A DNA stretch of 63,177 nt from Neelides folsomi (taxonomy: Eukaryota > Arthropoda > Collembola > Neelipleona > Neelidae): NCBI GenBank assembly GCA_034687125.1, contig JAQGBZ010000361.1:1-63177 (forward strand), given 5' to 3'. Position 1 is the first letter of the stretch, and the number at the start of each line of letters is the position of its first letter. The translations under genes were made by a program, and so were the position numbers. The notes beneath the pieces are model-generated. The model made no database searches. It was not told where the DNA came from and saw only the letters and a list, made by a program, of their open reading frames with translations. Shown here one piece after another: positions 1-55,703 of the stretch.

Positions 1-3000
1 GAGAACGAAGTTGAAATTTATAACAAATTACTCAAATTTCTATTTCTTGCTTCATCTCACGTCATTGTCAATCAAAATATTTTTAAAATGGTGAGGAATT
101 TATTAGAATAATTTTTTATTAGATTAATTTTTTAATGCGATAAATAAATATTACATTCATTTTTAAGTGAATAATAATTTTAATGTAATAAATAAATTAA
201 AAAATTTAAATTTTAGGAAGAAACTATTGGAGTGGAAATTAATTCAGGTTTTCACCCAAAAGAATTTATTAATCGTTTCAGCACCGTTGACTGTACGCTC
301 AATTTTGACAGAAATATTTACAAATACCCCGATATTCCTAAAAATTGGACAAAATTTCCAGTAGGCTCAAAAATTTTAGAAAGAGATTCAAAAATTTCAA
401 ATAAAGTTCAACAATTTCTGTCAATATTCCAATCAGTAACAATTTCATGTACTGACATATTTACAAATCCAAATCAGTATGAAAAGACACCTATTATCGA
501 CACTTATTATCAACAGTTATTATCGACACATTTTATCGATAATATACTTTTTAGGAAGAAGGCAAAAAATGTTTACCAAGGTTCCAATCAATCTTCAATT
601 AAAAATCTTAATGAATTTTTTAATGAATGCATTGAAAAGGTGAACAATCCGGATTCGGAATATTTCAACTTTAATCTGATTAAAAATACTTTGGCATTTA
701 ATAACGCTCAATTGTCAAACAAATTGGAAAATGATAATCATAATGTTATTAAAGAACTGATCAAAAATTATGAAACTGATTTGAACAATTTTTGTGAAGA
801 ATTTAAAAAATCTCCACTTCAAGATCCCCTTGATGGATTAATAAAATTGAAAAATATTTTGACAGGGGAATTTGAAGGAAATGACAACTTAAAAATCTTA
901 GAAAATGCTAAGGCTTATTCAAATTATTTAGAAAATGTCGAAGAACTTGAAGCTGAAGCCATTGAAAAAATCACATTGAATAAAAATGAGGATTTTGATA
1001 AAAAATTCTACAAATGGAAAGAAGAATTTAAATCATTGGTTTGCGAAACAGTAAAAGGCAAACTAAATCCATGTGAAGCAGTAAGTGACTCGGATTTTAT
1101 TTTTAAACTTCTGCAATTCAAAAACGAGGAGAAACATGATTCAGATGAATACTCCTCAACGGCACTGAACCTAAATTCTCAAACTTCCGCTGATACCGAA
1201 GTTATTTATCAAGCAAATGTAGCTTTTTCACCTGAAACAATTCAAAGTGAAGCTTCAAAAAATCAAGAAGACTACTTCTTGATTATGACTTTTAAATTAA
1301 AAGTAAATAGATATTTAAAAGAATTTAAAAAATTTAGAATTGAAATGAATCAAAAATCAAATTCATCTTTTTTGGATCAAACAAGTTTCCTAGATAATTT
1401 CAAAACTTTCTTGAATGAAGTTGACCAAAAAATTCCATGTTGCGGAAGGAAAATTCCAAACTTAAAAGAAACAGCAAGCAGTGGTTTTAAAGAGGATGGT
1501 AATAGAAATAATCTGAATAGATTTGAGGAAAATATAAAGGAAGAAGAAAAAATAAAAGCAGAAAAACAGAATAGGGAAATAGAGAAAACGGTTCAAATTT
1601 ATGAGATTATTAAATTGTATCTTGACTACTACGACAGTACGTTCAATGAAGCTCTCAGTGGAAAATATTTGAATGAAGTCGAATTAAAGCTTCTTCACCA
1701 AAATTCCATGGAAAAAATTCAAGAAAATGAAAATTATCCAATTCTCAAGAATGTAGTTTTTGAGGAAAATAAATTTCTCGAAATCATTAAAACAAAATTT
1801 GAATTATTTTCTAAATTGAACAAGGAAAAAAAAGATCGTTATTGTGAAAATTTCGAATTATTGAAATTTTACTACGAGAATTTAAAAAATGGAAGAGAAG
1901 AAAAATTCATTTCCTTTGTCAAACATGAATTCATAGAGAATCTTCAAATGCTAAATATGGAAGATGATTCAAATTACATTCTTTTGTTAAATAAAATTTC
2001 TGAAATTGGTGAAAATAAAGAATTTCGAGAATTATCAACAGATTACAAACTAGAACTTAAACATTTCATAACAAATTGGGAGAATTTTTACAAAGAATTT
2101 TCCCTGTTTGTAAAAGATCTTTTAGATTCGGATGATTTGGGAAATATTTTTAATGAAATAGACATGGAAAAATCAATTTCTGAGAATTTTAACTTCAGAT
2201 TCCTGGAAATGAAAAAGAATTTGAAAATTCTTAGCTGCAATTTTGTTCACCAGATTATTGCAGAAATTTCTGTTCACTTCAATAAGAGAAATCAAAATAG
2301 TTTGAAAGAGGAATTTGAAAAGATTCCAGAAATTCTTTTTCATGATTTTCTACCTGAAATTAAAAAGGAATATATCAAAGAAATGAAACGAATTCTTTTT
2401 CAAGATTATCAAATTACAACTAAATATAAAATCAAAGATGTTCATGAAACAATCGTTGAAGAATTGTCTTTTTCATTTTCAAAGACACTTGAATTAATTT
2501 ACAACAAAAAACTTGAATTCGAAGATGTGATCAAAATTCCTTCCTTCAAAAGATTGGAAATTGAATTAGTCAAATTAAGAAATAATTTTATCAAGGAAAA
2601 TGAGAATAATTTAATTCAGCTCCAACTTTTTGTCAAAGACTCTGTTTCAATTTACAATAAAAATTATGAATTTCTGACGTCAATCAAAAATTTAAAACTT
2701 CCCGCTTTCGTCCCAACAAATGAGGAATTGCAAATTTTGCACGAAGAATTCTTAACAAGTTCACTCGATCAATTGAAAGACACAATCTTTTCCTGCAATT
2801 CAATTTTATTCACAGAAACAGATAAAAACCCAATTGTTTCATTCACAGAGAAAGATTCACTCGCAGCTTCAAACGAACTCTTAAGAATAACTAAGGATGA
2901 TTTAAAAGTTAAAATTTCAAGTTTGGCTTGTGAGATAAAACAATGGGAAAATGAACCAAATGAATTGGAAGATTTTGAAGGAGAATTTGTGATTGATTTC

Positions 3001-4407
3001 ACTCCGTCGACAATCAGCCTTTATTACAAACTGCCCGGAGAAGAAAATTTCAAACCTTTGAATATGACGAAAAAAGAAAATGAACCAAAAACAAACATTT
3101 CCTCGAACTTTATTGCCCAAGACAGAAAAAACAATTTCATTTTTGATCCTGTTGAAATTGAAAAAAGCAAAAACCTTGGAATAAAAATTAAAACAATTTC
3201 TGGAAATTCAATTTTTAAATCAATTTCGGAAATTGAATTTGAAAACAAAACCTTTCAATTTGTAAAAAATGGGCAAAAATTCAATTCAATGGAACTTCAA
3301 GCTTTGATTTTTTCAAGATTCAAAACAACCGCTGAATTGTTTTTCAAAATGCGAATAAACAAATTAACCCTTCTTTTGCCAACATTCTTCTCTATTGCAG
3401 GAAAAGAATTTTTGATTAAATCCGCAACTCTCGCTGGTTTTAGTCAATTGAATGTTACAAGTTTTCTGGAAGCTGTTGCAGCTTCTAATTTGCCCTTAAT
3501 GGGAGAGTCCCAAAACGTTTTAATTGGGAGAAAAACCGGAAATGTTGTTGAAGCAGGTTTATTTGATTTTCATTATCAAGATGATTATGTTGAAATGAAT
3601 GAAATTGTTAATGAATTTTTTGAAATTTCTTCTCCGTTGCTTGCTCAATATTTTAATGTTATTCAAACGGGTGCTGAACAAATAATCCCAAAAGGCAAAC
3701 CGGTGGAAGATTTCGAATCGTTGATGGAAAATTTTCGACTTGATCTTAACAATCAATTTCCTGGCAATTTAACTTTTTTCCAAGAAGAGAATTCTTACAT
3801 TTGCCCTTTTCTCAATCTTGATTTGAAGAAAATCAACTCAAAATTCCATTTGCCTTTTTATATAAAAATTGAAAATAACGAAACAGTTATCCCAATAAAT
3901 GAACTTGAGATTCTGCATTTTTCAATTAGTAATCAGAAAAGTTCAAACATTGAATTGGAAATTTACGAAAAGCTTGAAGATAAAAAATTTAGTGATGGGA
4001 TCATTAAAATTCACAACAAAAATTACAAAACAATTGCGCTTAGTTTTGAAATTTCACAACTGAAAACACTGGGAAATTTTAATGCATTCGCAAATGGTAA
4101 AGGAGAAAAATTGAAAATCGAGTGGTTTCATCCTTCTTTTGGCCAAAGGCGAAATCGAATGGTTAAAAACATAGGCGAATCAATTAAACAAAACGAGGAA
4201 ATTTTGAAAAATGTTCTCGATTTTTTGACGTACGCAAATCAGAAGGAGGAATTGATAAACACAACCAGTGGAATGGATCGATTTAAAGGAGAATGTATTT
4301 CCAGTATCAATGATTCTAAAAAGTATCTTGATAAACCTTTTCTTTCTCTGAAACAAATTCAAGATAATTTAAACAATTTGAAAACAGTTATTGGTCGATT
4401 GTATTGA
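1..4407 (+). CDS. Large GTPase-like / coiled-coil / decayed Hsp70 fusion protein, 5' end off the window
   Basis: Two exons are visible: 1-90 (30 codons, then donor GTGAGG) and 217-4407 (acceptor TTTTAG, phase 0), giving 1,426 residues of a longer protein. The first ~120 residues resemble the atlastin/GBP GTPase core after the G3 motif: a helix ending FLFLASSHVIVNQN, like the 'ISSIQVYNL' helix of atlastins, and later FQSVTISCTDIFTNP, matching the position of the FTNISCF strand. About 750 Lys/Glu-rich helical residues follow. From nt ~2970 to the stop the order of landmarks is that of Hsp70: VIDFTPSTISLYY (phosphate-1 DFGTT site, degenerate), LLLPTFFSIAGKEFLIKSATLAG (the VPAYF..RQAT..AG strand; here split over 3380-3440), FLEAVAASNL (the NEPTAAAL helix), then an SBD-like beta region and C-terminal helices. 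The phosphate-2 DLGGGT motif and the AKRLIG lysine are not found, so ATPase activity is doubtful. Paralogous to the convergent gene at 5825-11443. Function unknown; the Hsp70 and GTPase assignments rest on motif order, not on a search. Confidence 0.75.
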
Positions 4408-5824: not shown

Positions 5825-8800
5825 TTAGTCCGAGTCCTCTGATTCTGAATCTGATTCTGAATCTGATTCATCATCATCTTCAAGTAATGGAACTCTTTTC
5901 TTCAAGTTTTCCTTAGCTGCTTGTCGCCTTGCAAATTCAGACAATATTTCTAATTCTTTTTGGGTTTTATTTGTATGATTAATTGCTTTAATCCGAATTC
6001 TGAGGTCACAATCATATTCAAAATAAACGTCAATGAGATCTGCCCCAGCTTTACTCTCAGACGTTTCCAAAGCCAATGATCCAACCTTGCTCAATAGAGG
6101 GTCAGAGGTCAAAACCATTTCTTCAGCTTCTCCTTCGAATATTGGAAGAAAAACTTGTTTTCCTTTCTTCCCATTAGTGCATTCAACTTTCCCTTTAAAT
6201 GGAATGACGCTTCCACGAGGAATGACAATTTTAAATTGATTTCCTTTAATTCCAATCCCAATCGTCGACGGAACAATGTCTTCCAATTTGTACTTGTCAA
6301 GTAAATCGGAATTATTTCCTAAAACATTGTCTCCGAATAATTTAGCAGCTTGGCGTCCAGCTCCAAATGCCACAGCTAATTGCTTGTCCTTTTCGTCAAC
6401 CCATTTCCCATTCCATTCAGGGCCAAAAAATTCAACCAGAGTTTCTTTGACCTTTGTAACATTTGACATCCCACCGACCAAAATCACATGAGTAATTTCA
6501 TGCTTCTCAACTATTTTTCTTTCAAACATCCTCTCTAACTTGATTCTGATATTTTTGAAATTTCCCTTGTTGATTTCATTAAATTCATCCCGGGAAAGTT
6601 GGAATTCAATATTTTTAGTGTCTTGGACAAGTTCAATTTTAATTGTTTCCTCATTGGACAGTTTGCATTTTGCATTTTCAATCTCATTTAAAAATCGTCT
6701 TTCAAAAATATTGGCCAATTTTGAAAGTTCAGCTTCAGCTGGATCCTCTGAATATTTATATTGAAGATAATCTTCACCATTGGTTTTGGATTTTTCAATG
6801 AAATGGTCAAAAATGGCTTGGTCGAAGTTCCTTCCTCCGAAATGGGGATCTCCTCCTATTTCAAGAACTTTAATTGAATTGATATCGGATTCAATGATGC
6901 AAAGATCAAGAGTTCCTCCTCCGAAATCAAAAATCAAAATCTTCCTAGAAGTTTCATCTCGCAATTCTGGGGTATGCATTCTGTAAGACACAGCAGCTGC
7001 TATTGGTTCTCTCATGAAGCAAATCTCCTGAAAACCTAAAAAATAAAAAAAAATTGCCATTAAAAAATTTAGAATAAAAAAATATTTACATTAAAAAAAT
7101 TTATAAATTTTGTAAATATTTCAATATTACTATTTACAGGATGCGCCGTAAGTATCTTTCTTTTTTATTTAGACAAACATATAAAAAAGAAAGATACTTA
7201 TGGCAATCCCTGTATATATATACTATTATAAATTACTATTATATTTTCAATATGGTATACTATTATTTTATTTATTTTAAAATTACCTGCTTCTTGAGCT
7301 GCTTTATATAAAACTTCATTATATTCATTTGAAGCTTGTACAGGAATTGTAATGACAACAAATGTAACGTCCATTTTGCAATATCTAATTGCTTCCCCTC
7401 TCAGCTTTTTAAGAATCAAAACCACAACGTCTTTGGGGTCAATTAAATTTCCATTTGATAATTTTATCATGGCATTTCCATTATCCCCCTTCACGATCTT
7501 CGTTTGCCATTGTCTCAAATCATACTGAAGTCGTTCGTCATCAAAAGTTCGCCCTAAAATCCTCTTCGGTTCGTAAATTGTATTAAATGGATTTTCAAAA
7601 TCTTGCTTTTTTGCTGCAATTCCAACCAAATGTGTTTCCAAACCAAAGGAGTTATCATCTTCCCCAGTTGGCATAATGTAAGCAACAACAGAAGGACTCA
7701 AATCCTGGCCTTGGTCAATTTGGATCGAATTCGATTTTCCATTTTGGGAAACTGTACAGGAAATGTAGGTTGTTCCAAAATCAACTCCAAGAACGGGATT
7801 TTTTTTGGCAGCATTTATCCGATTTTGTTCAGAATAAGCATGAAGTTTGAATTTCAAAGCTTCGTCAATTTTCTTTTTGAGTCTTTCGATGTCAATGTCG
7901 CAAGTGATATTTTTCTTTTGTTTGAAATCTGTAAGAACCTCATTTGTAAGAAGTTTGTTTTTAACATCCTCAATTTGAAGATCAAAAATTTGTTTGATAT
8001 TATTGTAGATTTCTCCGCATTCAACTTTTTCGCCTAATTTAGCTTCAATTAATTCGGTCGCTTTTATCCCAATTTCCTTTTCAACTTCACCAATCTTGAT
8101 ATTGTCTAGGATAAATACATCCAATCTCAAACTCTCATCTCCTGACTCTAATGATTTAAGATAAGTGAAAGCATTTTTAATTTCCATTTGGATTTCGTTA
8201 TTTGTGAAGGCAAGTTTAGTGTTCTCAAGTCTGAAATATAGAAAATGTATTTATTATTTAAATTTTAAATAATATTCTTAAAATAATGAAATTAGTTAAA
8301 ATAATTTATAAAAAATATAATCTGTACTTCTCTTTAATTGTTTCTATTTCGTTGATCTTTATTTGAAGAAATTCTCTCACAGTTTTAACTTCGCCTTGAA
8401 GAATTTTTTCTTCCATTTTTTTGGCTAGCTTTTTAATGGATTCTTTAATTTCTTGTAATTTATTTTCAATTTCTCGTCCTGTCAATTCTTTTTCAGCTTC
8501 AATCAATTTTTCTTCCTCAAATTGAATTTCCATTATTTTGGCTGTTTTTAAACTCTCTTCTTTAATTACTTTTAGTATTTCATCAACTTTGGATTCAAAT
8601 CCGTTTACAATAATTTCTGAAGGATTTTTAAAATATTTCCCCAGATGTTGCCGAGCATTAATGTCAAATTGATCAATTTCCTCTCCAGTATAATGCGCTT
8701 TCCCATGGTTTATTAATTGCTGATTCAAATTTTCCGCGTATAATTCAAAGATGAAATTAACATCGTTAATTTTTCGATCCTCAAATTGTGTTTCAGCATT

Positions 8801-11443
8801 GTAGTAAAGAATTTCCATTTCTCTTGCAAGTTCCATCTTTTTCTGTTCATAAACGAATTCTTCAATGAAATCAATTTGTTGAAATCCTTCAATTGTTTCT
8901 TTCTTCATCTGATCGAACATATTTCTGAATTCGGATTTTAAGTCAATTTCAATAAGAGCAGCTTTGAAATCATTGAGACTTTGGGCGGAATTTTGTTCCA
9001 GAGTTTCAACAGCTTGTATTTTAAGTTCTCTCAATCTGCTTTCTTCTTCTGCTTCTCTTCTAAATTGTTCTTCCTGCAACCTTTGGATTTCAGTGATCAA
9101 GTCGACGTATCTTTGTTCAAGAGCAACAAATGTGGGCGAATTTGCATATCCTTCAATCAAATAATCAAAGTCTCTTTCAATTGTGGTCAACTCATCGTCC
9201 AATGAATAAAGAATTCGTGATTTTGCAGCTTCCATTAAATCGGAAATTGGAGTTTTATTAAATTTCTCCAAAAATTCCTCGTCAGTCAAATTGACAAAAA
9301 TTGTTGAAATTGTCTCGAATTCTGATTTAACGTTTTGGCGAACTCTTTCCAAATACTTCCTTTTCTCTCCTTCATTTATTGTCAGTTGAATTCTGTGAGA
9401 GGATTCAATCTGAGCTTCGAATCTTGAAATCCTTTGTTCATGGTTCAAAAGAGCTTCGGTTGGCAATTGTCCGAAATTTGATTTTAGAACATTTATTGCC
9501 TTTTCTTTAGTTTGCTCATGATGGAAAATAAATTTTTCTTTTCCGAGAAACTTGTGATCTCCTTTGATGGAAGTCATCGAGGTCAAATAAAATGCTTTAG
9601 CATTGTTTTCAGCAAATTTAATCATTGATTCGATAATTGACGCAAATCCTCTATCGTTTAATTCAAATTCGTCAAAAGATCGAAGCGGCTCATTGAAAAT
9701 TTTAATGAGATTTCCAAGCAAAGAAAGAAAATTCTCATTTGAAATTGGCTCATTAAAAAATTTCTTTTCGAGTTTTTCCAAACCCTTACCCAAATGTAGT
9801 TCGTTCAGAATTGTCTTGATTGATTTGTCGAGTTGTTCGATGAACACAAAATCGTCAATTTCTTCCAATGACCCACTTGAACTTTTTTTGAAGACTTTGT
9901 CCGGGAAGTTTGAAATTGTGAGTCCTTGAATTGAAGTGAAAATGTTAAGATGTTCCTTGAGATCTGGATATTTTTCAAGAAAATCTGCAGGATCTTCATT
10001 TTCAAATTCCTTTGAGGTCAAAAGGAAAAAAAGACGTCCCAGATTCAAATTCGAATTTTCGTGCCATTTCATTTTTAAAGGTAAATTTATTGGAAAGATG
10101 TTGACATTCTTCTGTTCTGGTATTAAGTAAATTGTCAAGGACGACAAAATTAATTGGAGAAAAGCAAGGCGATCGTTCATATTTCGGAAATTTTCAATTG
10201 GTTCGAAAAACGTTGTGTTGAGAACATAAATTGCCAAATTCTCTCCCCCGTTTTGAATAATGAAGGGCGAAGAAGTAATTGAAATCCCAGGTTGAGTTTG
10301 CTCTTTTCCCTTTTCCCAATTAAATCCTTTGAGAGGAGAAGAAAATTCGTCCATGTTTTGGTAAAGCGTAAAATCCACATTTCCTTTCTTTAGTTCTGCA
10401 AGATTTCTATGAGGTTAAAATATAAATTTATTATTTTTATTTTATCAACAAACTAAATATAACACTTACATGCAATGTACAAGTATACTTAATATTGTAT
10501 AAAGATAAATCAATTATTTTTAAAAGGGTGATTTATAAATAATATTTCTAATAATATGGTAATTACCGCATAACATAATTGATGTAAAATGCGCTCTCCG
10601 ATGATCCAATAGTTGACAAAAATCCAACTTTCATTCCATCTGATTTGCTTAAGATCTCTTTAAGCTCTTCGTCTTTAAGGGCAAAATAAGGATGGGTGGA
10701 ATTGAATTGAATGATGTTTTCAATTTTAATTTCCTCGGTTTCCATAGTTTCTAACTAATTAAGAATAGAATTGTCATTTAATTAAAACTTAGTATTTTGT
10801 ATTAAATTATAGCTTATTAATGTAAAGTGAAAGTCTTAGATCTCCCTTTACTTTTAGATATGATCGTATAAAGTATTTTATAAAGAATAAGCAGTAACAA
10901 ATAGTAACTTGAAACCAATTTAGATTAAGGCATAAAAAAGATCAACACAGATCCCTTACTTTCACTATACTTACTACTTTAAAACATTTTTTCAAAAAGA
11001 CATACGTAATTAACTAATGGTATGGTAACTGGTAAGTTACATACGCTTTGAAATTCAGATTCAAATTGAGTTAGTCGATATGAAGGAAAAATTAATTGTA
11101 GTTCAAATCCACCGTTCGAAAGATCCAGGAGAACGGCATCATCGTCGAAGCCCTCGTCTATTAAAATAATATTCGGTTATCAAATTACATTAAGGTGATC
11201 AGATCTGATATTTACAATTAATGCACATTCACAATAAAGTAATTTCATTATATTGGTTTTAAAGCCAAACTATCAAATATGTAATCAGATCGAATAGAAT
11301 TTAATTAAAGGATTAGAGTAAATTAATAATATATACTTATTAGTACGTATTCTACGTATAAATTATTTTTTACCTTCGAACTTTTCTAAAAGTTCGGATT
11401 TATTAATATTTTGAAGACAATGTTGAATTTTACGGTAACTCAT
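5825..11443 (-). CDS. SAM-like / atlastin-GBP-type pseudo-GTPase / helical / Hsp70 fusion protein
   Basis: Six exons on the minus strand, all in phase: 11443-11374, 11157-11045, 10754-10567, 10406-8328, 8230-7287, 7035-5825 (1,534 residues). Residues 1-61 look like a SAM domain. Residues ~65-360 follow the atlastin GTPase fold: strand plus P-loop site (KVGFLSTIGSSESAF), PLKGFNWEKGKEQTQPGI (atlastin PLTGFSWRGGSERETTGI), LNTTFFEP at the DTQG site, FLQLILSSLTIYLI, and FTSIQGLTISNFPDKVF. All nucleotide-binding residues of G1-G4 are replaced. Residues ~360-960 are helical and Glu/Lys-rich. From ~962 an Hsp70 follows with intact VGVDFGTTY, PKRILGR, REPIAAAVSY, ILIFDFGGGTLD, GGDPHFGG and HVILVGGMS motifs, then SBD-beta (EDIVPSTIGIGIKG onward). 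There is no full helical lid and no EEVD; the chain ends in an acidic Asp/Ser/Glu tail. A shorter product could start at Met 10745. I know of no named family with this architecture. Confidence 0.82.
7135..7214. repeat. 80-bp palindromic mini-element in the last intron of the Hsp70-fusion gene
   Basis: The arms 7135-7166 and 7183-7214 are near-perfect inverted repeats. Both contain TAAGTATCTTTCTTTTTT and both start with TACAGG. The element sits entirely within the intron between 7036 and 7286. It resembles a very small foldback MITE with a TA at each outer edge. Confidence 0.7.
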
Positions 11444-11924: not shown

Positions 11925-14742
11925 ACCCTATCCAAGCCAACTGTGAAATTGTGGGAGGAACCACCCTCCAGAAAATGACCTTTTTTCCCGTCTATTTTGC
12001 CCCGATTACATTGCTATCTCGTTACGCAGAAGAATTCCGCCGGTATATCTTATTGCAATTGTTCCCCATAAAAAGTTATGTATAATGGATAATTGAAAGT
12101 GGGAGGAATTGTACGGCGTAACTTGCCTATGAAGATTTATTGGATTTAAAAGGTTGCCAATTTTCTCACATATAACATAATTCAAATAAATAAATAATAT
12201 ATTTAAATGTTATTTTAATACAAATTACTTATAAATATAAATATAATAAATTAATAAGTATTTATTAAAAATACCGCCAAAAATACCGCCGTCATTTTAA
12301 ATTTTTAAAATTTTTTAAAAATTTTTTAAAAATTAAATTTTTATAATTAATAAAAAAAATCAGCAGTAACACCAAAATGTAGAGCGCAGCGAGTTGCCAC
12401 TATACGTCCCCATTCGTCGATTGGAGATCAATTAAAGAAGAAGTTAGGGTTGGAAAGTTTTGGACGACGGGAACGGCCATTTTTAAATGATTAAACAAAG
12501 GGTTATACGGGTTTCGACCGGGCCGCACAACCATCGCTAAAATAATCAACATGAATAATTTGAGGATTTTTACTTTTTAACCATACTAAAAACGTATGGT
12601 TGAATGAATGGAAAGCTGTCGTGTTGTGAGTTTTTGAGTCGCTAATAAATGCAAAAGAATGGAAAACTACTGAGTTTAAGTTTGGGTCATATATATGAAC
12701 AACACAAGCATGTATAGTTGCTTGGTCATTATTGAAATGATGAGCTTGGGGTTCTTTTTGAACAATGATGCTGAAATTTTCCCCAAAGTCAACATGAACA
12801 ACCGCAAAAGTTTGATTGTGAATCAAATCTTCACGTTTTTTTGAAAAAAGAAGCTTGAAAATTACTAATGTAATTGTGGGGAATAAAAAGTTTTAAAGCT
12901 TGGTATAAATAATCCATAAAATCCTCAATATTACAAACAATTTCAAGAATTTGAAATTTTTTATTTGATCTTGACCAAGTTGAAAATAATATTTCTCCCT
13001 TTTCTCCAATAAAAGGTAAAATATAATTATACAACTTTTGAGGATAAGATTCACCACGGGAGCAAAGTTTACAAACTCCTAAAAGACAATCCTTATTATT
13101 TTCATCACAAACTAAACAAGAAACTAATTCTTTCCTTAAATGTTTCGGAAAATTTAGCCCATGCAAAATTAGATCCAAATTTCCGTGAATTTCGCACACA
13201 CATACATTTTGAGCTTGAGGGTGACTAGGTAGCTTACACCATTTTGGCCTGTAACTACAAAATACTGATTTTCCTATTTTAATGTTAGGATTCTCATTTT
13301 TGAAATCGATGAATAACTTATTTAAATTTTTAAGCAAAAGCCTACCTGATTTAATAATTGAAATTCCATTTTCATCTATTTTTGTACAGGACTTGATTGA
13401 AGGTAACTGATATGAATTCTCGTCTAGTTCATAAAATTTTTCTACTAACTTCTTTGTCTCGTCACTAATTTTATTATGAGCTACTCGTTTAACCAGCTTC
13501 AAGTTATCCTTACTTGAAAGCTTAATCCCTGCTTGGGCAAGTCTATGGGAACAACCTAATTCCTTTAATGTTGTGTGTGCGTTCCAAGGTGTAATGCTGA
13601 GAAGTTGGATTTTTTCTAAGCGATCGGCTTTTTCGAGATTTCTGCGTATATTTGACTTTATTTTTGCCAAATCGGCAGAATCTTTTTTTAGCCTGTTAAG
13701 GGTATCAAAATCAACTTCTACTAATTTACGAGGTTTGGGAATTTCTTTGGATTCATTCACTGGATTGTCTTTAATGTATTTTCTGCATACCTTACATACA
13801 TACATCCCTGGAATGAGCCCATAATCATTATTTCGAAATGATTGGAAATATAATTTTGTGGTTATAATTCCTCCTTTACAATTATGATTACTTTGAGAAA
13901 AGCTAAATCCCTGACATGGTCCTTCCCTATTTTTACGAACCTTCATAGATCCAAATTCAAAATAATGCTGTAGACAAACATAACCTGATTTTGGAAAATG
14001 ATAATTCTTTTATTTGATATGATCTTGTAAGTAAAAGGTTAAAGAAGTAGAGCACTTATCCAAATCCTTGTAGTTTCCTTCATTTTCCTCTTCGCATTCA
14101 TCTTCTAAGAGTTCTCCAACACAGCATTTTCTTTGAATCTAATTTATAACCATAGGTATTAATTAAAAAAATCCAATTAAAATATATAATATTCATTAAT
14201 AATTTAAATTAAAATAGATGATTAATATATATAAATTTTAATACAAAAGGAAGTATGATAAATATATTATGTATACAATAATTAATATATTATAAATATA
14301 TATTTACCTGGAGAGCATGGAGAGCTTCGTCGATCTCCATCATTTCCTCGTCTTCACCCGTCATTTCCACTTCATCACCTCCAGTGTCGTCGTCTTTCTT
14401 CTTCTTTCCAGCATCGTCTTCATCTGCTCCCTCGTCGTCGTCTCGTTTCCTCTTTAGGCAATCCATTTGAATCTCTGGTCCACTTGATCCTCTTTGGCTT
14501 CAACAGCGTCTTCTTCCACACAAGGCAGGATTCAACAGGAGTGGAGGATAATGGATTGCGCACATGGTTCATGAGGCACATGGAAGGATGACAATGAGAT
14601 AATTTGGCGGGTTTTATTCAAAAGAATTATATTTATTCATATAATTACATTCTGGCAAGATAGGAAATTTGGCAACGTCTAATTCTTCTGTGGGTTAGGG
14701 GAACGCCCAAGGGGTGGATTTAGCGGATGGCTTGGATAGGGT
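11925..14742. mobile_element. 2.8-kb DNA transposon with terminal inverted repeats
   Basis: A 15-bp perfect inverted repeat, ACCCTATCCAAGCCA, occurs at 11925-11939 and, reversed, at 14728-14742. Similarity fades over a further ~10 bp inward. Between them lies a minus-strand, multi-exon transposase-like gene that is broken. The interior contains locally GC-richer stretches unlike the surroundings. I could not identify a convincing target-site duplication (flanks end TAATATAAG and begin GATAATTTAG). Confidence 0.75.
12503..14466 (-). pseudogene. Broken transposase-like gene with Cys-rich and DDE-like regions
   Basis: Exon 1 (14466-14312) encodes MDCLKRKRDDDEGADEDD and a further acidic stretch, ending at CAG with donor GTAAAT. 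Exon 2 (from about 14140, acceptor ATTAG, phase 0) continues with IQRKCCVGELLEDECEEE. A TAA stop follows DHIK near 13997. The frame then remains open through CLQHYFEFGS into a 371-codon block (13946-12831) with Cys pairs (VCKVCRKYI, CLVCDENNKDC, GVCKLC). A one-base shift in a run of seven A near 12835 breaks the frame. The second frame (12826-12503) reads VVHVDFGENFSI, later QEPQAHHFNNDQATIH-like text and VDYFSDGCAA. The spaced D..ENFS, H..NNDQATIH and FSDG motifs match a recurrent arthropod transposon protein that I cannot name. The 3' end appears deleted just after SDGCAA. At least three lesions make it non-functional. Confidence 0.7.
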
Positions 14743-16610: not shown

Positions 16611-17468
16611 ATGTTATTAAACTTTGCCACTGTCTTTTTTGCATTCTTAGGAATATTATTTCCATTTTGTACTTCTCAAGCAGGCATGAATATATCTCTT
16701 CTTTTTCTTTAGTTATTAAGAAATAATAGGTCACTTGAGGAATTATTTCAATATCGATCTTAGTTATTTATTAATTAGTAGATTAAATTATTAATTGAAT
16801 AAAGAATTAATTTTCGATTTCTACATTTATATTCTTGTTTAGTATCAACAATTACTTTCGCGCAATTTTCAAAAGCCGTCACCACCAACCCACCCGAAGG
16901 AAGTCAAAGATGGCCAGCCCCAAGCAAATCCAAATATGACAATTTTATGAAATACGCGAAATCAAGAGGAGCTGTGGCCGACAAGCAAGAAGCAGCTATG
17001 GTTTTAGCAAATATCTTACACGAATCTGACGGGCTCCAAGCAGTGCGTGAATCAAAATGCCAAAAACCCGCGACTAGAAACTGCCCTAATGATTATAAAG
17101 GGCATGGTTGTGAAGTTAAGGGCCAATATTACTACGGGCGTGGGTACATTCAATTGTCATGGTGCTATAACTACAGAGATGCTTCTGCTGAGATCTTTAA
17201 TGATAAAAACGTTTTGCTGAATAAACCTGACCGAGTTGCAAGTGAAGATCGATTGTCATGGGAAACAACATTTTGGTTCTGGAAAAAAAATGTTCACCAA
17301 GAGGCCACGACTGGGCAATTTGGGTTGACAATTAAAAAAATAAATGGGGGAAAAGAATGCGGATCAAATCCTGAAAATTCACAAGGAGCCCCGAGAAGGA
17401 AAAACATTTATGTAAATGTGAGAAAAGCTTTTGGTCTTAAAGGACCAGGAGATCATTCTGGTTGCTAA
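16611..17468 (+). CDS. Secreted GH19-family chitinase
   Basis: Two exons, 16611-16683 and 16843-17468 (232 residues). The intron uses a GC donor (CAAGCAG|GCATGA) and a normal AG acceptor; phase 1 is kept. Residues 1-24 are a signal peptide (MLLNFATVFFAFLGILFPF ... SQA). The mature enzyme has the GH19 landmarks: NILHESDGL with the general-acid Glu of the HE motif, a second Glu in AVRESKC at the place of the general base, YYYGRGYIQLSWCYNY (the RGxxQLSxxxNY substrate-cleft signature), and a C-terminal NGG..C segment. GH19 enzymes hydrolyse beta-1,4-GlcNAc links of chitin with inversion. No chitin-binding domain is present. The protein is close to catalytic-core length. Probably extracellular, for digestion, moulting or antifungal defence. 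GH19 is mainly plant, bacterial and nematode, so its presence here is notable. Confidence 0.9.
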
Positions 17469-41193: not shown

Positions 41194-43594
41194 ATGGCAA
41201 CTTTATCACCACCATTTATTCTCTGTCCATTATCTGAGAGTAATGAATTTGTCGGCATGAGCGAGGACCGGAATGAGAATAAAGTCATTTTGACTATTGG
41301 AAAGAACATCGCTATAAGATATCACGTAATATATTATTTAACTCGTTACATAATTTGTTATAATTATGATTAAAAATCTTTTATGACTTACTAAACGTCT
41401 CTTAATAATTAAATAGTTGCTGGAACAAAAACAAGAGATCAGCTGGACTTCGAGTCGTCACTGGTTTACATCGCCTGTCATTTATTGTGCAGAGTTTGAT
41501 AAATACGGGGCTGTTATTGACCAGTGCATCGTTATCTTGTGGGATGAAGATGATACAGATTTGAAAAACATTAAGAAGCACAAAGTACTTTCAGATAAAA
41601 ATAATTACCCTTCTTTATGTCCAATAGTCCAATTGTCATACAAAATTTTGCATTTCTTAAACAATTAAATCAATAATCTTTCTTGTTTAATTACAGTTTA
41701 CTCTTCCAATTTTCGAATTGAAGTATGCCAGAGATCTTGGAACAATTGTTGTATTTTCAAATGGACAAATTATGAAGCTCCAATCTGCTATTGAAACAAA
41801 AAACGGAAGTAAAAATTTGGAGCCTTTACTTACTGATAAAGAAGTCATTTTAGAAACAGAGTTTAATGAGAAATCCAACCTGTTTTTTGTTGTGTCTTCT
41901 AACATCACAAACGAACCACTAAAAGTAATTAAATTTAATTCATTCCCGAATTATCTATAATAATTGTAAGTTTGTAAGTACTTATTTTAATATTATTTTG
42001 TGTAATACAATCTGTTATATAATTTTGTAGAATAAAACAAAATGCAAATATTTGAGAGAAAAGCGAAGCGAGCTGAGGATTTTAACCTTTAGCTTCAAGA
42101 ATAATACACTGGGTCATGGTCAGGTCATCAATGACTCAGGAAGCATTGTTTATGATGAAAGGCAAATAGCAGGATTCTGCATCATTCCCAATCAAGATAA
42201 TACTTTTCTATTTTCACTGTGTAAGAGATTGTATAAATATTTAATAATATAAAATATTAAAGATACTTTATATTAATTACTATACAATAATACAATACGT
42301 ATGATACTTACATTTTTATACGATTTTTACGTGCTTTTTATAATCTTGTTACAGGTTCAGATGGATTCATTTACAAGCGAATTCTTTACTCTGATTCGGA
42401 AAGAGCACATCAAATAGTGAAAATGAACGAAAAAATTGGAAGTTTAAGATCTCATGTTAGCACCAACAATCCAGTTGTTATTCGATTTCTCACATCGTCC
42501 TCGGTTGTGGTTTACGGAAGTGATCCCACAGAAGAAGGAGCCGTCGTATTAATTTATGACTTTAACTACGATATTATGATTTCAAAGCAATTTGTAAAAC
42601 TATTCGGAGCTTCAATTATGCATAAAGTCTTCGGAAATATCATTGTTCCTGTTGGGCTTAACATGCTCGTCCTATCATTGAAATATAAAGAATCGACACT
42701 TGCTTCAATCTTGGGAAAACACCAAATTCAAAATTTGGATTTTTTTGAGCAACAAAATCCTTGGGAAGTCAATTGGGAAACTGATGTGAATAGCACAAAA
42801 AGAAACGAAGAAATGAATGAGGAATTGTTTAAAAATCTGACCGATGTTTCTAAAATTGCTGAGATTTTAGAGAAGAATGGATATCCCCAATCATTGTAAG
42901 ATAATTTCGATATTAATTAATTAATATTAATATTGTTTAATGAACATAACAGTATCAGATCAGTAGTTATTGATCATTTGCACATTTTTTTTTGATATTA
43001 ATTAAATATTTATTTTACAGAATTTGTAATCAAATTATACCGCAAGCTATCCAGTCTAACAACATGGAATGGATTAAATGGATTCTCTCCTCGTTCTTTG
43101 ACATTCCTGAAGCCCAACTTGTAAATATTTTATCTTTTCTCCTTGATAAAATTCAAGGAGTTGAACTTTGTCAAATCCCTTCGGACATTTCGAGCCTTTT
43201 ACTTCAAATAATCAAACGACCATTTGACTCCCAAGGCCTAATTAATGCGGTGAAAGGTTTGAGTTATTCAAATTTAAAAGTGTTCGTTTCTCTTCTTCTT
43301 GATATGTTGAAAGTGGCTTCGTGGAATGACTTTGAAAATAAAGGGAATGTGGAGCATATTAGCGATTTAATTAAATGGTCGTGTGTTCTTCTGGATGCCA
43401 ATTATACACAGTTCGTTTACAACGACGAATTACCTCTCATTTCTGAATTCTTGGAAATTTTAGAAGAGAAATCCAATTTAATGTCTGAAATTGAGAAGTT
43501 CGCTCCGCATCTATCAAAGATTTTATTCAAATCAAGTTCAGATTCCAAACAGAATGTTTCGAAATTTAGAGTCGAGATAATTAGTTTTTATTGA
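41194..43594 (+). CDS. NOL11: Nucleolar protein 11 (NOL11), t-UTP/SSU processome component
   Basis: Six exons (41194-41325, 41417-41626, 41697-41924, 42031-42220, 42355-42895, 43021-43594) give 624 residues, in the range of animal NOL11 (~700). The N-terminal ~380 residues have the spacing of a beta-propeller (VILWDEDD at the place of the human LRIWNNED blade; GTIVVFSNGQIMKL; SDGFIYKRIL like human SDGCIYETL). The C-terminal helical domain carries LIKWSCVLLDANYTQFV, closely matching human IMDWICLLLDANFTVVV, and ends SKFRVEIISFY like the human SIEVLELF end. NOL11 links the t-UTP/UTPA subcomplex to rDNA transcription and early 18S processing. The donor of exon 2 (ATA|GTCCAA) is weak and is the least certain junction. 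Confidence 0.88.
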
Positions 43595-49999: not shown

Positions 50000-50264
50000 G
50001 ACCATTACCATTAGACACTTCCACAGTATGCAGTTTTCATTGCTCATTGCTCCTTCAGTCTTGGCACTTTAAGGTCGACCTTTATTTTTCCCACACAAGT
50101 CCACCTTGGATTCTGAAAATTCCAAAACCCATTAACAAACGTAAATTTTTAATTCTCTATGGCAATAATTAACATCTAATGGAACATGCTAATAAATCGA
50201 TAGTTTTTCCTTAATTCTTTGTATCAATAATTTCTCCTTGATATTTCCTTGCTAAATCTTTGAG

Positions 50265-52364
50265 ATGATTTTTTTAAGTTTATATCTTTACTTAAATCTC
50301 ATAAGTTTAATTTTATGCAGCATAAATTTTAATGATAATTTTAATAATAAAATAACTATCTTATTTGTTAAAAGTTTAATTGAGATTATTCGTGAAAGTG
50401 AATATCGTGATGAGTTCTGCCCATTAAAATACATTTCATCTAGTGGAATAAGTGGTAATATCAAAGATATAATTAACGATGAATTTGTTCCTTATAAAAT
50501 AAATAGTGAACTGATTCCAATCCAATCTCTCTCAATTAATTCATTGGATCATAATTCAACATTCAACCGATTAAAACAAGCAAAGTGGGAACATAAAGGA
50601 CATTTCAGAAAAACTTATTGTTCAACTGTTACAGTTACAACAATAAATTATAATTTAATATCCTTAGTAGAAAAATTAAAATTGATAACTCATATTAAAA
50701 AAGACCATTTTTTATTTTGGCATAAAACTCAAAGTGAATCATTATCATTTTTAAATTCTCTTAACACGCCAATGACTCCGAAATTAAAATTTAAAATTTT
50801 GCTCTTTATGTGCAAAAATTGCCCAAATTTGTGTTCACTAAATATATCAAGCAAAAATAAGACTCAAGATTTAACCAATGAAAATAAAATATTTTTTCAT
50901 GATAGAAAATGGATAAATTTAAAAGGGAAAAATATTTCTGTTTCAAGCACAGATTTGTCTCCGTATGTAACAATTGATCGTTACGATCCTTTTCAAGTTA
51001 TTCGCGGTTGCCATGCAGAACTTTATCGTGCAGTTGCGAAAGTATATAATTTAACCATTACAATTGACGTGGATCCGAAAAGATCAATAGGGATAAAAGC
51101 TGCGAATGGGAGTTGGATCGGAATGTTTGGTGATGTCGTTTATGGCAGATTTGAAATTGCCGCCTGGATGGGATATTCATCTCCACGCTATCCTTTTATT
51201 GACTATACGACTTATACAAGAATTGATAATTTAGTGTTTTTAACAGCAAAGCCTAAAATCATATCAGTTAAATGGGAAGCAATTTTTTATCCATTTACGC
51301 CATTGGTTTGGTATTTAATAATTACGGTGTTTTTTATCTCAATCCCGATATTTTTCGCTGGTTTGAATATGAATTTAGATAACAAAAAATTCAAAATTTA
51401 CCGCTCTTGTGAAATGCCATTTGCTATGTTGTTTGAACAATTTATAACAATTAAAAAAGGAACTCAAATAATTTCAGTTGTACTATTACTATTCGCTTTA
51501 ATTATTTTGACTGGTTACCGAAGCAACTTAATTTCATTTTTGACTTTTCCCGAAATTGAAAAAATCCCGGTTGATTTTCAACAATTGCACGATGGAAAAG
51601 ATTTCAATATTTATTATCACTATTTGGGAGGATTGGGCTATATACGGTTTAATAGTTCTAAAAAGCAAATGCATATGAATTTAAAAAGACGACTAAAATT
51701 AGAACGATCTTCAGAAAAATGTGTTTTGGCAGCATTTCTTGAACATAAAACAGCATGCATTGGGTGGAACGTTGCGATTATGCAAGCAGTTGCCAAACGG
51801 CTGACGCTTAATCAAAATTACAATCCTGTTTATATGACTCAAGATGCGATTTATTCTGTGGTTCGGGCTGTGGGACTTCGAAAAGATTCTGATTTAACCG
51901 ACGCTTTTGGATTTCTGGTTGGGAGATTGCGAGACACGGGACATTTTGAGAAATGGAACGATGATTTGTTGAAGCGGTCTAAAGCACGCGGAAGTTCTGA
52001 ATTGAAAAGCAAAGGGAGGAAAGCAAAAGAATTTGTTGAACTTGAAACAAGAATTCTAAATTCAGGGAAAGAATTGAAACCTTTTAAAATAGAAAATGTC
52101 TACGTTAATTTTATAATATTAATGTTCGGATTGTCTTGCGGATTTGTAGCGTTTTTATTTGAATTTTTTATAACACGCGGGAAACGAGTTATTCAACTCA
52201 GCAGATCACAAATTTCAAAAGGCATAATTATCGTTGAACCCAAAACATCCCTAAGAATGAAAGTTAAATTCAAAAGAAGCTTAACATCTTTTCATCTTCA
52301 AAATTTCCAAAATAATAATAATTTATTAAATGGCCGACAAAAATGCAGTACAGCACGATATTAG
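50265..52364 (+). CDS. Ionotropic receptor (IR) 1 of a tandem array
   Basis: Single-exon gene of 699 residues. Residues 1-19 are a signal peptide. The divergent amino-terminal region runs to ~210. Ligand-binding lobe S1 follows at ~215-335 (NISVSSTDLSPYVTIDRYDP, SWIGMFGDVVYGRFEIAAWM). TM1 is at ~347-367 (LVWYLIITVFFISIPIFFAG), then the pore region (PFAMLFEQF). TM2 is at ~399-420 with GYRSNLISFLTFP, the equivalent of the iGluR SYTANLxAFLT motif. S2 is at ~430-600 (GLRKDSDLTDAFGFLVGRLR) and TM3 at ~611-636 (FIILMFGLSCGFVAFLFEFF). The glutamate-binding Arg/Thr/Asp triad is not evident, as in divergent IRs. Likely an odour/taste receptor subunit in sensory dendrites. Same orientation and closely similar to the next two genes. 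Confidence 0.92.
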   Translation: MIFLSLYLYLNLISLILCSINFNDNFNNKITILFVKSLIEIIRESEYRDEFCPLKYISSSGISGNIKDIINDEFVPYKINSELIPIQSLSINSLDHNSTFNRLKQAKWEHKGHFRKTYCSTVTVTTINYNLISLVEKLKLITHIKKDHFLFWHKTQSESLSFLNSLNTPMTPKLKFKILLFMCKNCPNLCSLNISSKNKTQDLTNENKIFFHDRKWINLKGKNISVSSTDLSPYVTIDRYDPFQVIRGCHAELYRAVAKVYNLTITIDVDPKRSIGIKAANGSWIGMFGDVVYGRFEIAAWMGYSSPRYPFIDYTTYTRIDNLVFLTAKPKIISVKWEAIFYPFTPLVWYLIITVFFISIPIFFAGLNMNLDNKKFKIYRSCEMPFAMLFEQFITIKKGTQIISVVLLLFALIILTGYRSNLISFLTFPEIEKIPVDFQQLHDGKDFNIYYHYLGGLGYIRFNSSKKQMHMNLKRRLKLERSSEKCVLAAFLEHKTACIGWNVAIMQAVAKRLTLNQNYNPVYMTQDAIYSVVRAVGLRKDSDLTDAFGFLVGRLRDTGHFEKWNDDLLKRSKARGSSELKSKGRKAKEFVELETRILNSGKELKPFKIENVYVNFIILMFGLSCGFVAFLFEFFITRGKRVIQLSRSQISKGIIIVEPKTSLRMKVKFKRSLTSFHLQNFQNNNNLLNGRQKCSTARY

Positions 52365-52900
52365 TTAATAAAAATAATTATGAATAAAATAAACGATTTT
52401 AGTGATTTATTGCACAATTTAATTAAAAATAACATTTTTATTAATGCATTAAGATATTTTTTCAATCATATACAATTGTTTTAATTCATGATGTGCATTG
52501 ATGTTTATTCATTCGTCTTATAACTTTAGTAGGATAGTTCAATATATATATATATATGAATCCCACCCTGTACATACATATACCATAAAATCTATTTTTA
52601 ATAATAATACTTCACTCATAATATTGACAATTTGAATTTGAACTTACATTTAGATAATCCATATATATAGGTATATATATAAAGCTTAATTAAGACATGT
52701 CTTCTATTTCCCGTTTTGTTATCTTATCGAGTCACCTATCACCTTATCCAATATTATTTATTTAACCTTACCTTATACCAATTAATATCAGTTAAATATA
52801 CAAAATACAAATACAATACCTATTGGAAAATCTTTTCCTCATGCCGTATTAATAAAGATAGTAATAAAATTATAATTTTTTCACTTATTTTAATTAAACA
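52365..52900. other. Spacer between IR copies 1 and 2
   Basis: AT-rich, with a short AT microsatellite near 52543. CCCACCCTGTA at 52561 is matched in inverted orientation by TACAGGGTGGG near 55405. Confidence 0.4.
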
Positions 52901-54858
52901 ATGAGCTTTTTAAACATATGTTTTTTACCGCAAATTATTATATTAAACGTGTTAGCCTTCAACATTAAATATCATAACAATAATGATAAGAGCAATTTAT
53001 TGTGCGAAACTTTAATTGAAATTATTCGTGAAAGCGAAACCCTCGATGAATTTTGTGCAGTTAAATTTATTTATCCTGGAGTTATTGTGAATAATCATGA
53101 AGATAATGAAGATAACAATGTCCTTAATTATGACTTAATTTTTCTCAAAATAAATGAAGAATCAGTTCCTTTACAAACGTTAACAATGAAATCATTTAAT
53201 AAAAATTCCACACTCCAACGTTACAAAAAGGCTAAATGGATATTGAAGGAACCATGTTATAAAACTTATTGTTCAACCATTGTACTAACAGTTAAATCTC
53301 ACGACATTTTATCGCTAATTGAAAAACTAAAACATACTACTTTTATTAAAAAGGATCATTTTGTATTTTGGTTACAAAATTTAAACGAATCTCTTAAAAT
53401 TTCCAATTTACTTATTAGTAAGCCAACAATACCAAAACTAAAATACAAAATATTCATATATGGATGCTATAAAAATATGTGTTCTTTAATGGAATCGAAT
53501 AAATCTCATGAAATAAATATGAACATGAAATTAATAAATCAAAAATCAATAATAAATTTTAATTCACGGAGATGGATCAATCTACAATGGAAACATATTT
53601 CAATTTCAAGTTCAGATTTAGCGCCATATGTTACCATAGAACCTGAAGATCCTTTAAAAATAATTCGCGGTTCTCATGCAGAAATTTATAAAGTGCTCGC
53701 AAGCGCTTACAATTTTACTATCAAATTCGACGTTGATCCTAAGAGATCAATTGGAATAAAAGCTGCCAATGGGAGTTGGATCGGAATGGTTGGAGACATC
53801 GTTTATAGAAGATTTGATATTGCCGCTTGGATGGGATATTCAAAACCAAGATATCCGTATATAGACTACACGACTTATACGAGAATTGATAATATGGTTT
53901 ATTTAATTGCAAAACCAAAGATCTTAAAAGTAAAATGGCAAGCAATTTTTTATCCGTTTACGCTATTTGTTTGGATTGTTACAATAGCAGTATTTATCAT
54001 CACAATTCCTATATTTTTTGCTGGATTGAATATAAAAAGGAAATTGAAAGATTTTAATTTTTATAATGCGTTTGAGATCCCTTATGGGATTTTATTTGAA
54101 CAATCCATTAAACTAAGAGAAGGAACAAAAATAATCGGAATTGTTGTTTCTTTATTCGCTTTTATTATTCTAACGGGTTATCGGAGTAATTTAATTTCAT
54201 ATTTAACTTTCCCCGAATCAGAGAAAATTCCTATTAATTTTCGTCAATTAAATGATGCAAAAGATTACAATATTTATTATCATTATGTTGGGGGGATTGG
54301 CTATATGTGGTTTAACAGTTCTAAACAAGAAATAAATATCAATTTGAAAAATCGGTTTATTTTAGAAAAATCAATAGAAAAATGTGTTTTGGCGGCATTT
54401 TTAAAACCTAAAACTGCTTGTATTGGATGGTTTGTTGCGATTTCTCAAGCTGTTGCAAAAAGATTGACTTTGGCTCAAAATTACAATCCTGTTTTTATTA
54501 CCCAGGATGCAATTGTGTGATTCCTGCAGTTGCACTTCAGAAAGATTCAGATCTTACTGATGCATTTGGGTTTTTGGTTGGGAGAATGAGGGACACGGGG
54601 CATTTTGAAAAATGGAATGACGATTTACTGAAAAGGACAAAAAGTAAAGGAAGTTTGAAACTTAAAAGCCAAGGAAAATTGAACAAAGAATATGCTGAGC
54701 TTGAAAAACAAATTTTAAATTCGAAATCAAATTTGAAGCCTTTTAAGATTGAAAATGTTTTTATTCATTTCTACCTATTAATTTTTGGATCATCATGTGG
54801 ATTAATCGTTTTTCTTTTTGAAAATATTAAAAATACCTACAAACATGGAAATAAATAG
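52901..54858 (+). pseudogene. Ionotropic receptor 2 of the array, frameshifted
   Basis: The first frame (52901-54520, 539 codons) has a signal peptide (MSFLNICFLPQIIILNVLAF), S1 (DLAPYVTIEPEDP, SWIGMVGDIVYRRFDIAAWM), TM1 (FVWIVTIAVFIITIPIFFAG) and TM2 (GYRSNLISYLTFP), and breaks right after ITQDAI. The second frame (to 54858) resumes at VIPAVALQKDSDLTDAFGFL and carries TM3 (FYLLIFGSSCGLIVFLFE). Compared with copy 3 (GATGCAATTTATTCCGTGATT) copy 2 has four bases fewer at 54511-54515. One four-base deletion is the only lesion seen, so the break is recent or an assembly error. Confidence 0.85.
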
Positions 54859-55703
54859 AAAAATATAAAATTTAATGAATGTAATCTCAAGGTTGTTGGC
54901 AAATTATTTGCATGCTCATATTTTGATTATTATGGTTTTATTATAATATGCTATATTATTCCAATTTGGCATTTCATAACAATTATCAATTATGATGGAT
55001 TACGATTCGATACATAATTTAATGAACGAGTTTGTATTTAAAGTTTGCATGTAATTTTTTACTCGTTAATTTATAAATTGATAAGCATCTCATATATACA
55101 TAATACTCATATATCATCTCTCACATCGAAATGTAATTACCAATCATAATATCATTAAAAATTAATTTTATTATACCAGTATCTTCACTCATTTTTTACT
55201 TTACTCTTCCATTTTAGACTCAATTTAACGAAGTCTATTGATAGTTCAATTTTGGTTGATTATTATATTGATAATATACATATAGCCAATTAGGATTTTT
55301 AAACCATTTGTAATTGTAATAAATGTAACTGTGTGTATGTGGAATAAATTGTTATTGTACAATATTGATTATTTTTATGTAATTACATAGTATTAATACC
55401 TTTATACAGGGTGGGCCTTTATACCCTTTACATATCTACAACACAAATAGAAATCCATCAAATTAGGTAATTAAATTTGAATTGTGTTGTCTGGTTGTCT
55501 GCTAGTTAAAGTAAATATGTACATTTAGATTGTAAAGATTAATTAATTATTATTGGTTTCTTAGAATTATCTCACAAAATGATGTTATATTAAATCTATT
55601 GAGTAACATTTGTATTATATCTGTTTGTTAAAGATAGTTTATATTATTATTATTAAAGTTAAGGTATTATAAATGTATAGAATCTTTCCTCAACTGAATA
55701 ATA
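54859..55703. other. Spacer between IR copies 2 and 3
   Basis: No gene recognised; AT-rich. Confidence 0.4.

Follow-up and report, generated by a model that had tools for sequence, protein, structure and literature searches.

Can a dynamin-family head and an Hsp70 chaperone be carried by one and the same protein and, if so, what could such a protein do? The question is raised by a minus-strand locus (11443-5825) of a contig from the springtail Neelides folsomi, the whole 63,177 nucleotides of which form the window analyzed here, and in which a preliminary description had seen a single chain in which a long stalk separates a GTPase-like head from an Hsp70.

Results

One frame across six exons

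When joined across five GT-AG introns, the six minus-strand exons (11443-5825) remain in phase and give 1,547 codons with a single terminal stop. This bears out the in-phase six-exon join of the preliminary description, together with its junctions at 10567/10406, 8328/8230, and 7287/7035, and corrects the chain length that it had given as 1,534 residues. The longest stop-free run reaches 702 codons, a length that no shuffling of the bases of the 11443-5825 region approached (maximum, 165 codons in 300 shuffles), and the GC content is 27-38% in exons versus 10-24% in introns. With a codon-usage model trained solely on a neighboring open reading frame (ORF; 217-4407, plus strand), the predicted frame was the top-scoring one in all six exons, and each of the 15 intron frames fell below zero. 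We infer a single transcript for the whole fusion.

Exon 1 (11374-11443, minus strand, as are all the following) provides the start codon and residues 1-23, with a best-frame score of 0.29 and no domain found. Exon 2 (11006-11157; residues 24-74), whose best frame has a weak score of 0.11, contains the stretch formerly described as a SAM-like domain, an assignment that we withdraw, as neither a Pfam family nor a PDB match was returned for the N-terminus at E ≤ 10. The atlastin-like head begins in exon 3 (10567-10754; residues 75-137), with a degenerate P-loop at residues 124-129, and continues in exon 4 (8328-10406; residues 137-830) up to about residue 345 (base 9782), the rest of this exon encoding most of the stalk. 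The end of the stalk and the opening portion of the Hsp70 nucleotide-binding domain, which begins at base 7806, share one frame within exon 5 (7287-8230; residues 830-1145), while exon 6 (5825-7035; residues 1145-1547 and the stop) encodes the remainder of that domain, the linker, the β part of the substrate-binding domain (SBD-β; about 6277-5939), and an acidic tail (5938-5828). The stalk itself is a charged region of about 600 residues between head and Hsp70, probably helical judging from its composition, and its PDB search gave nothing below E = 0.19.

An atlastin-like head with largely replaced nucleotide motifs

The relationship of the head to atlastins is supported over residues 128-322, for which the best phmmer match in the PDB is 9jju_A (E = 1.7e-10), in an alignment that spans the junction between exons 3 and 4. 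The other 13 of the 14 PDB matches at E ≤ 10 are all atlastin-1, atlastin-3, or atlastin chains (E = 2.5e-4 to 0.021, the former value being that of atlastin-1). The Pfam GBP family is found under its curated cut-off when the head is searched alone (E = 0.001) and is not listed at E ≤ 1 in a scan of the complete chain. Homology to dynamin-family G domains is thus indicated by the PDB matches together with this subthreshold Pfam hit. As for a three-helix-bundle middle domain, a second match to atlastin-1 is colinear but nonsignificant, and the region searched alone gave no match. An AF2 prediction of the exon-4 head piece from the single sequence, without alignment, had a mean pLDDT of 33.4, and a second structure model one of 38.6, values too low for either model to be of use; a G-domain fold of the head is thus predicted from sequence similarity.

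The residues expected to handle the nucleotide are, for the most part, replaced. Indeed, K52 and S53 of the 9jju P-loop align with S128 and A129 of the head, the D and G positions of its DTEG motif with N200 and F203, and the R of its RD motif with T267, the D lying opposite a gap. The TTG of atlastin-1 reads QPG, and in switch I, ETTTKG of 9jju is aligned with EQTQPG, so that one Thr is still matched. The set formed by the P-loop Lys-Ser/Thr, the switch-I Thr, DxxG, and RD is accordingly not found in the head. As these motifs are largely replaced, we predict the head to be a pseudo-GTPase that would have lost GTP binding, and reject an active GTPase as implausible. Of the atlastin/GBP-type GTPase head announced by the preliminary description, the sequence homology therefore stands, and the plausible GTPase does not. 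Nor did we recover any sign of membrane insertion, no candidate transmembrane segment or hairpin being found in the chain (highest 19-residue Kyte-Doolittle mean, 1.33).

An Hsp70 without lid

Residues 972-1510 are assigned to Hsp70, with E = 2e-78 for the Pfam family and E = 4e-60 for Hsc70 in the PDB. The nucleotide-binding domain is full and keeps its catalytic residues, D980, K1052, E1154, D1181, and D1188 being aligned with D10, K71, E175, D199, and D206 of Hsc70, which we take to be, in this numbering, the residues with catalytic/ATPase roles. SBD-β is likewise recovered as had been described: its profile score is 38.8 bits, whereas the best of 500 local shuffles reaches 6.5. The helical lid (SBD-α) is absent, with just 37 residues beyond position 1510, largely acidic toward the end; these form a Ser/Asp/Glu tail terminating in ESEDSD, in place of the C-terminal EEVD of cytosolic Hsp70s. 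Furthermore, the position of Hsc70 Arg171, presumably a J-domain contact, is occupied by Cys1150, and the interdomain linker has a four-residue insertion relative to Hsc70, two features because of which ordinary Hsp70 cycling may be altered. Identity to the best database proteins, among 8,000 candidates scored, is 28-29%.

A neighboring gene with a degenerate Hsp70-like end

Convergent to the fusion gene lies the single 1,396-codon ORF mentioned above (217-4407, plus strand), in which a long charged region is followed by a C-terminus that we regard as degenerate Hsp70-like (the match covers residues 998-1091 of the ORF). This likeness rests on profile searches: using an Hsp70 profile built without the fusion, it scores 29.7 bits (E = 2.4e-9), when the maximum of 1,000 local shuffles is -24.7 bits, and ranks third among the 180 ORFs of the window, behind the two Hsp70 exons of the fusion and ahead of an ORF at E = 0.56. 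Pfam HSP70 gives E = 0.0034 for the C-terminal piece, under its cut-off, and a scan of the complete ORF does not list it at E ≤ 1; the best PDB match has E = 0.041, and direct pairwise similarity to the Hsp70 part of the fusion is weak, two of 200 shuffles reaching its score.

The two genes thus resemble each other in having a long charged region and then Hsp70-like sequence. They differ in that the Hsp70 part of the neighbor is degenerate, has not kept in the alignment the GGGT of phosphate-2, and has a nonsignificant SBD-β (as high a score occurs in 34 of 500 shuffles). Homology between the stalk and the charged region of the neighbor was also rejected, as 33 of 200 shuffles matched its nonsignificant score. 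Upstream of the neighbor, a candidate exon cut by the window edge (1-90, plus strand) contains an open frame that runs up to an ATG followed by GTGAGG. An atlastin-like head suspected there by eye was discarded, the late-head score being attained by 359 of 500 shuffles and the wider-head score by 33 of 200.

Comparison with known systems

Searches of the protein database returned 16 proteins, none with a listed GBP/atlastin domain, and hence no fused relative: three were obtained at E ≤ 1e-3 (8,000 scored), none at E ≤ 10 (1,621 candidates), and 13 at E ≤ 1e-5 (8,000 scored). Both 8,000-candidate searches scored the best 8,000 by shared words, and because shared five-letter words were required, a divergent orthologue could be missed. 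Likewise, among the literature matches listed, no title or abstract opening mentioned an atlastin/GBP-Hsp70 fusion or a nearby domain pairing. The predicted combination of atlastin-like head, charged rod, and Hsp70 is therefore one for which we found no described relative.

With atlastins and GBPs, the fusion shares the similarity of its G-domain sequence over residues 128-322; it departs from them in the replacement of the P-loop, of DxxG, and of most remaining residues aligned with nucleotide motifs, as well as in the attached Hsp70. It also differs from atlastins by the lack of a transmembrane-like segment, and from GBPs, some of which end in CaaX, by the lack of such an end. Compared with Hsp70s such as Hsc70 and BiP, it possesses the full nucleotide-binding domain with catalytic residues, the linker Asp, and SBD-β, but is divergent, devoid of helical lid and EEVD, endowed with an acidic tail, and preceded by about 970 other residues. 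A further parallel comes from soluble insect atlastins with a coiled-coil middle domain, as reported in excerpts of the paper on the antiviral BmAtlastin-n (PMC4926086). Like the fusion, this 770-residue protein has an atlastin-type head, no transmembrane segment, and more sequence behind the head, where a coiled-coil middle is followed by a C-terminal domain whose function is unknown; unlike the fusion, its GTP-binding motifs are described as conserved, and no Hsp70 is mentioned in these excerpts (PMC4926086).

Discussion

The joining of an atlastin/GBP-type head to an Hsp70 through a long stalk, the core of the preliminary description, is upheld by our analyses: the sequence shows directly that the frames join in phase, that both homologies exist, which motif residues were replaced and which retained, and that a transmembrane-like segment is lacking. 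On this basis, the explanation that we tentatively favor is that of one gene for a soluble chimera, in which an atlastin/GBP-type head predicted to have lost GTP binding and a charged rod of about 600 residues would carry a lidless Hsp70. Rod and dead head would self-associate or bind a partner, which may be an active GTPase of atlastin-like type, and thereby gather several of these ATP-driven Hsp70 modules into a multivalent holdase or local chaperone platform. The tethering of a chaperone by a scaffold, as first proposed, is still a reasonable inference, and a putative role in stress or against pathogens is possible.

Less plausibly, the chimera could act chiefly as a pseudo-enzyme regulator, its dead head pairing with active soluble atlastins or GBPs of the same cell, so as to poison them or else to deliver Hsp70 to the membranes or intruders that they coat. 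The replacement of nucleotide-motif residues within kept G-domain sequence would agree with such a role, as would the existence of soluble coiled-coil insect atlastins, among them the antiviral BmAtlastin-n (PMC4926086); however, the partner is putative, and the head is too divergent for its dimer surface to be judged, which makes us consider this explanation unlikely.

We find it improbable that the locus corresponds to two transcription units or main isoforms, one comprising head and stalk and ending at the stop at 8306, the other being a separate Hsp70 starting from a Met of exon 5. Intron 4 (8231-8327, minus strand), which lies within the stalk, does lead to that stop after six more codons when read through, and it contains an AATAAA. 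Yet this signal is frequent in such AT-rich DNA, six AATAAA/ATTAAA being present in the 325 nt past the stop of the gene, and the 97 nt between exons 4 and 5 leave little space for an ordinary intergenic region; these 97 nt have GT-AG ends and 10% GC, and their coding score is negative whichever of the three frames is read. Moreover, the stalk frame continues across exon 5 into the Hsp70, and the neighboring gene joins its charged region and Hsp70-like part within one exon. Finally, a decaying or nonfunctional chimera, whose head and parts of whose Hsp70 drift unselected, would fit the divergence of both and the degenerate Hsp70 part of the neighbor, but is improbable in view of 1,547 stop-free codons with consistent codon bias and of ATPase residues kept in a protein that has lost lid and EEVD, a pattern unlike random decay.

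Returning to the soluble chimera, the two genes may, in a broader and doubtful reading, be members of a small animal protein family in which the atlastin/GBP plan was turned into a soluble, GTP-independent scaffold with an Hsp70 effector, and in which sister genes would contain a pseudo-enzyme, Hsp70 in the neighbor and GTPase in the fusion, the whole serving as a chaperone platform, possibly in defense or stress. It is usually separate co-chaperones that bring Hsp70s to where they act. If our explanation is true, an Hsp70 wired to a dynamin-family scaffold would localize or cluster chaperone activity in cis, would let the avidity-based action of a lidless Hsp70 be tested, and would add a pseudo-GTPase to the atlastin/GBP class.

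Results

The predicted fusion gene (11443-5825, minus strand) encodes 1,547 residues in six in-phase exons closed by one terminal stop, and all five introns are bounded by GT..AG; the preliminary description had placed the inner exon junctions exactly and had made the chain, at 1,534 residues, 13 too short. The longest stop-free run in the region reaches 702 codons, against at most 165 in 300 base shuffles of that region, GC amounts to 27-38% in exons and 10-24% in introns, and the window holds no N. A codon model trained on the neighbouring ORF 217-4404 only ranked the predicted frame top in all six exons and scored 15 of 15 intron frames negative. Exons 1 and 2 score weakest (0.29 and 0.11), which leaves confidence in the chain lowest at its exact N-terminus. 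Intron 5 carries an inverted repeat (7131-7218; 38-nt arms, 84% complementary, 12-nt spacer) resembling a small mobile-element hairpin. Upstream of the gene, two ORFs in different frames (12503-14009, minus strand) suggest, on visual inspection, a broken gene of transposon type; no Pfam family exceeds its cut-off there.

Searched against PDB, the head (residues 115-524) gave 14 matches at E<=10, led by 9jju_A ("LOC432253 protein", E 1.7e-10), the remaining 13 of the 14 being atlastin-1, atlastin-3 or atlastin chains (E 2.5e-4 to 0.021); the exon 3/4 junction falls inside the alignment with 9jju. Pfam GBP reaches E 0.001 on the head alone, slightly short of its curated cut-off, and is absent at E<=1 from a scan of the whole chain. 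The PDB matches, with Pfam GBP sub-threshold, thus argue for homology to atlastin/GBP-type heads, as had been proposed. At the positions that we take to be the nucleotide motifs, the P-loop Lys and Ser of 9jju align to Ser128 and Ala129, the D and G of its DxxG to Asn200 and Phe203, and the R of its RD to Thr267, the D facing a gap; in switch I, the TTG of atlastin-1 becomes QPG, and the middle Thr of the 9jju ETTTKG still has a Thr counterpart. Since these aligned residues are mostly replaced, the head is predicted not to bind GTP, and what had been read as a GTPase would rather be a pseudo-atlastin. Every 19-residue segment of the fusion protein has a mean hydropathy of at most 1.33, hence no atlastin-like membrane hairpin; matches to the atlastin three-helix bundle were non-significant, and an AF2 model of residues 138-462, the contiguous exon-4 piece of the head, had a mean pLDDT of 33.4, too low to confirm the fold. 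The SAM-like domain also proposed found no support in Pfam or PDB searches.

The stalk spans about 600 residues; in the 445 measured (521-965), Glu accounts for 16% and Lys for 11%, and there are 3 prolines, a composition from which we infer that the stalk is helical; its best PDB match has E 0.19. The Hsp70 nucleotide-binding domain described beyond it is borne out by Pfam HSP70 (residues 976-1538, E 2e-78) and by Hsc70 in PDB (E 4e-60), and SBD-beta by a profile built from four other proteins (38.8 bits, versus at most 6.5 in 500 local shuffles). Asp980, Lys1052, Glu1154, Asp1181 and Asp1188 align to Hsc70 D10, K71, E175, D199 and D206, presumably, as we number them and take their roles, the catalytic set; with all five matched, an ATPase is plausible. 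The linker carries a four-residue insertion relative to Hsc70, Cys1150 replaces Hsc70 Arg171, which we take to be a J-domain contact, and the protein lacks lid and EEVD, ending in an acidic Ser-rich tail.

The weak point is stalk intron 4 (97 nt, between 8328 and 8230), where two genes might be split: unspliced, exon 4 meets a stop at 8306, and the intron contains one AATAAA. However, the flanking exons lie only 97 nt apart, the intron's composition argues against a split, the stalk frame is open on either side and the Hsp70 starts within exon 5, so that the fusion is most probably one gene.

The convergent neighbour gene (217-4407, plus strand), a single exon of 1,396 codons in which profiles detect a degenerate Hsp70-like C-terminus after a long charged region, adds independent support for the stalk-Hsp70 join. 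An Hsp70 profile from which the fusion had been left out finds the neighbour's C-terminal part at E 2.4e-9 (29.7 bits, versus at most -24.7 in 1,000 local shuffles); among 180 window ORFs only the fusion's two Hsp70 exons outscore it, the next having E 0.56. A profile that includes the fusion gives 31.0 bits, and the best of 1,000 full shuffles -14.3. Single-sequence and Pfam evidence is weaker than these profiles: the best PDB match has E 0.041, and Pfam HSP70 gives E 0.0034 on the C-terminal piece and is absent at E<=1 from the whole ORF. The Hsp70 part is degenerate in alignment, an AF2 model of the neighbour's C-terminus has a mean pLDDT of 38.6, too low for use, and no significant similarity was found in head, stalk or SBD-beta. 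At window 1-90 (plus strand), an open frame, cut 5' by the window edge and ending before a GTGAGG donor, resembles by eye the atlastin segment after DxxG; the similarity is not significant.

Elsewhere lie a class I (GH19) chitinase, a type unusual in animals (16803-17468, plus strand; Pfam E 3.8e-14), nucleolar protein 11 ORFs (42291-43594, plus strand; Nol11_C above cut-off, NOL11_N sub-threshold), three consecutive ionotropic-receptor-like ORFs with Lig_chan or Lig_chan-Glu_bd matches (50256-57650, plus strand; two of three exceed a Pfam cut-off) and a sub-threshold F-box match. To judge by the receptor-like ORFs, the chitinase and the F-box match, the source is probably an arthropod.

Discussion

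The locus reads as a chimera of coding quality, most probably one gene, that joins a predicted pseudo-atlastin head to a lidless Hsp70, and we found no description of its head-stalk-Hsp70 architecture. A GBP/atlastin Pfam domain occurs in none of the 16 proteins matched by protein-database searches (3, 0 and 13), no fusion of such a head with Hsp70 was found in the literature among the matches listed, and the main text of the Folsomia candida genome paper (PMC5490193) contains neither "atlastin" nor "hsp70". Soluble atlastins, one of them antiviral, are described from insects (PMC4926086), and a protein of this kind is therefore a plausible ancestor of the head. The fusion scaffold may self-associate or dock on a partner, and would thereby cluster ATP-driven Hsp70 modules.
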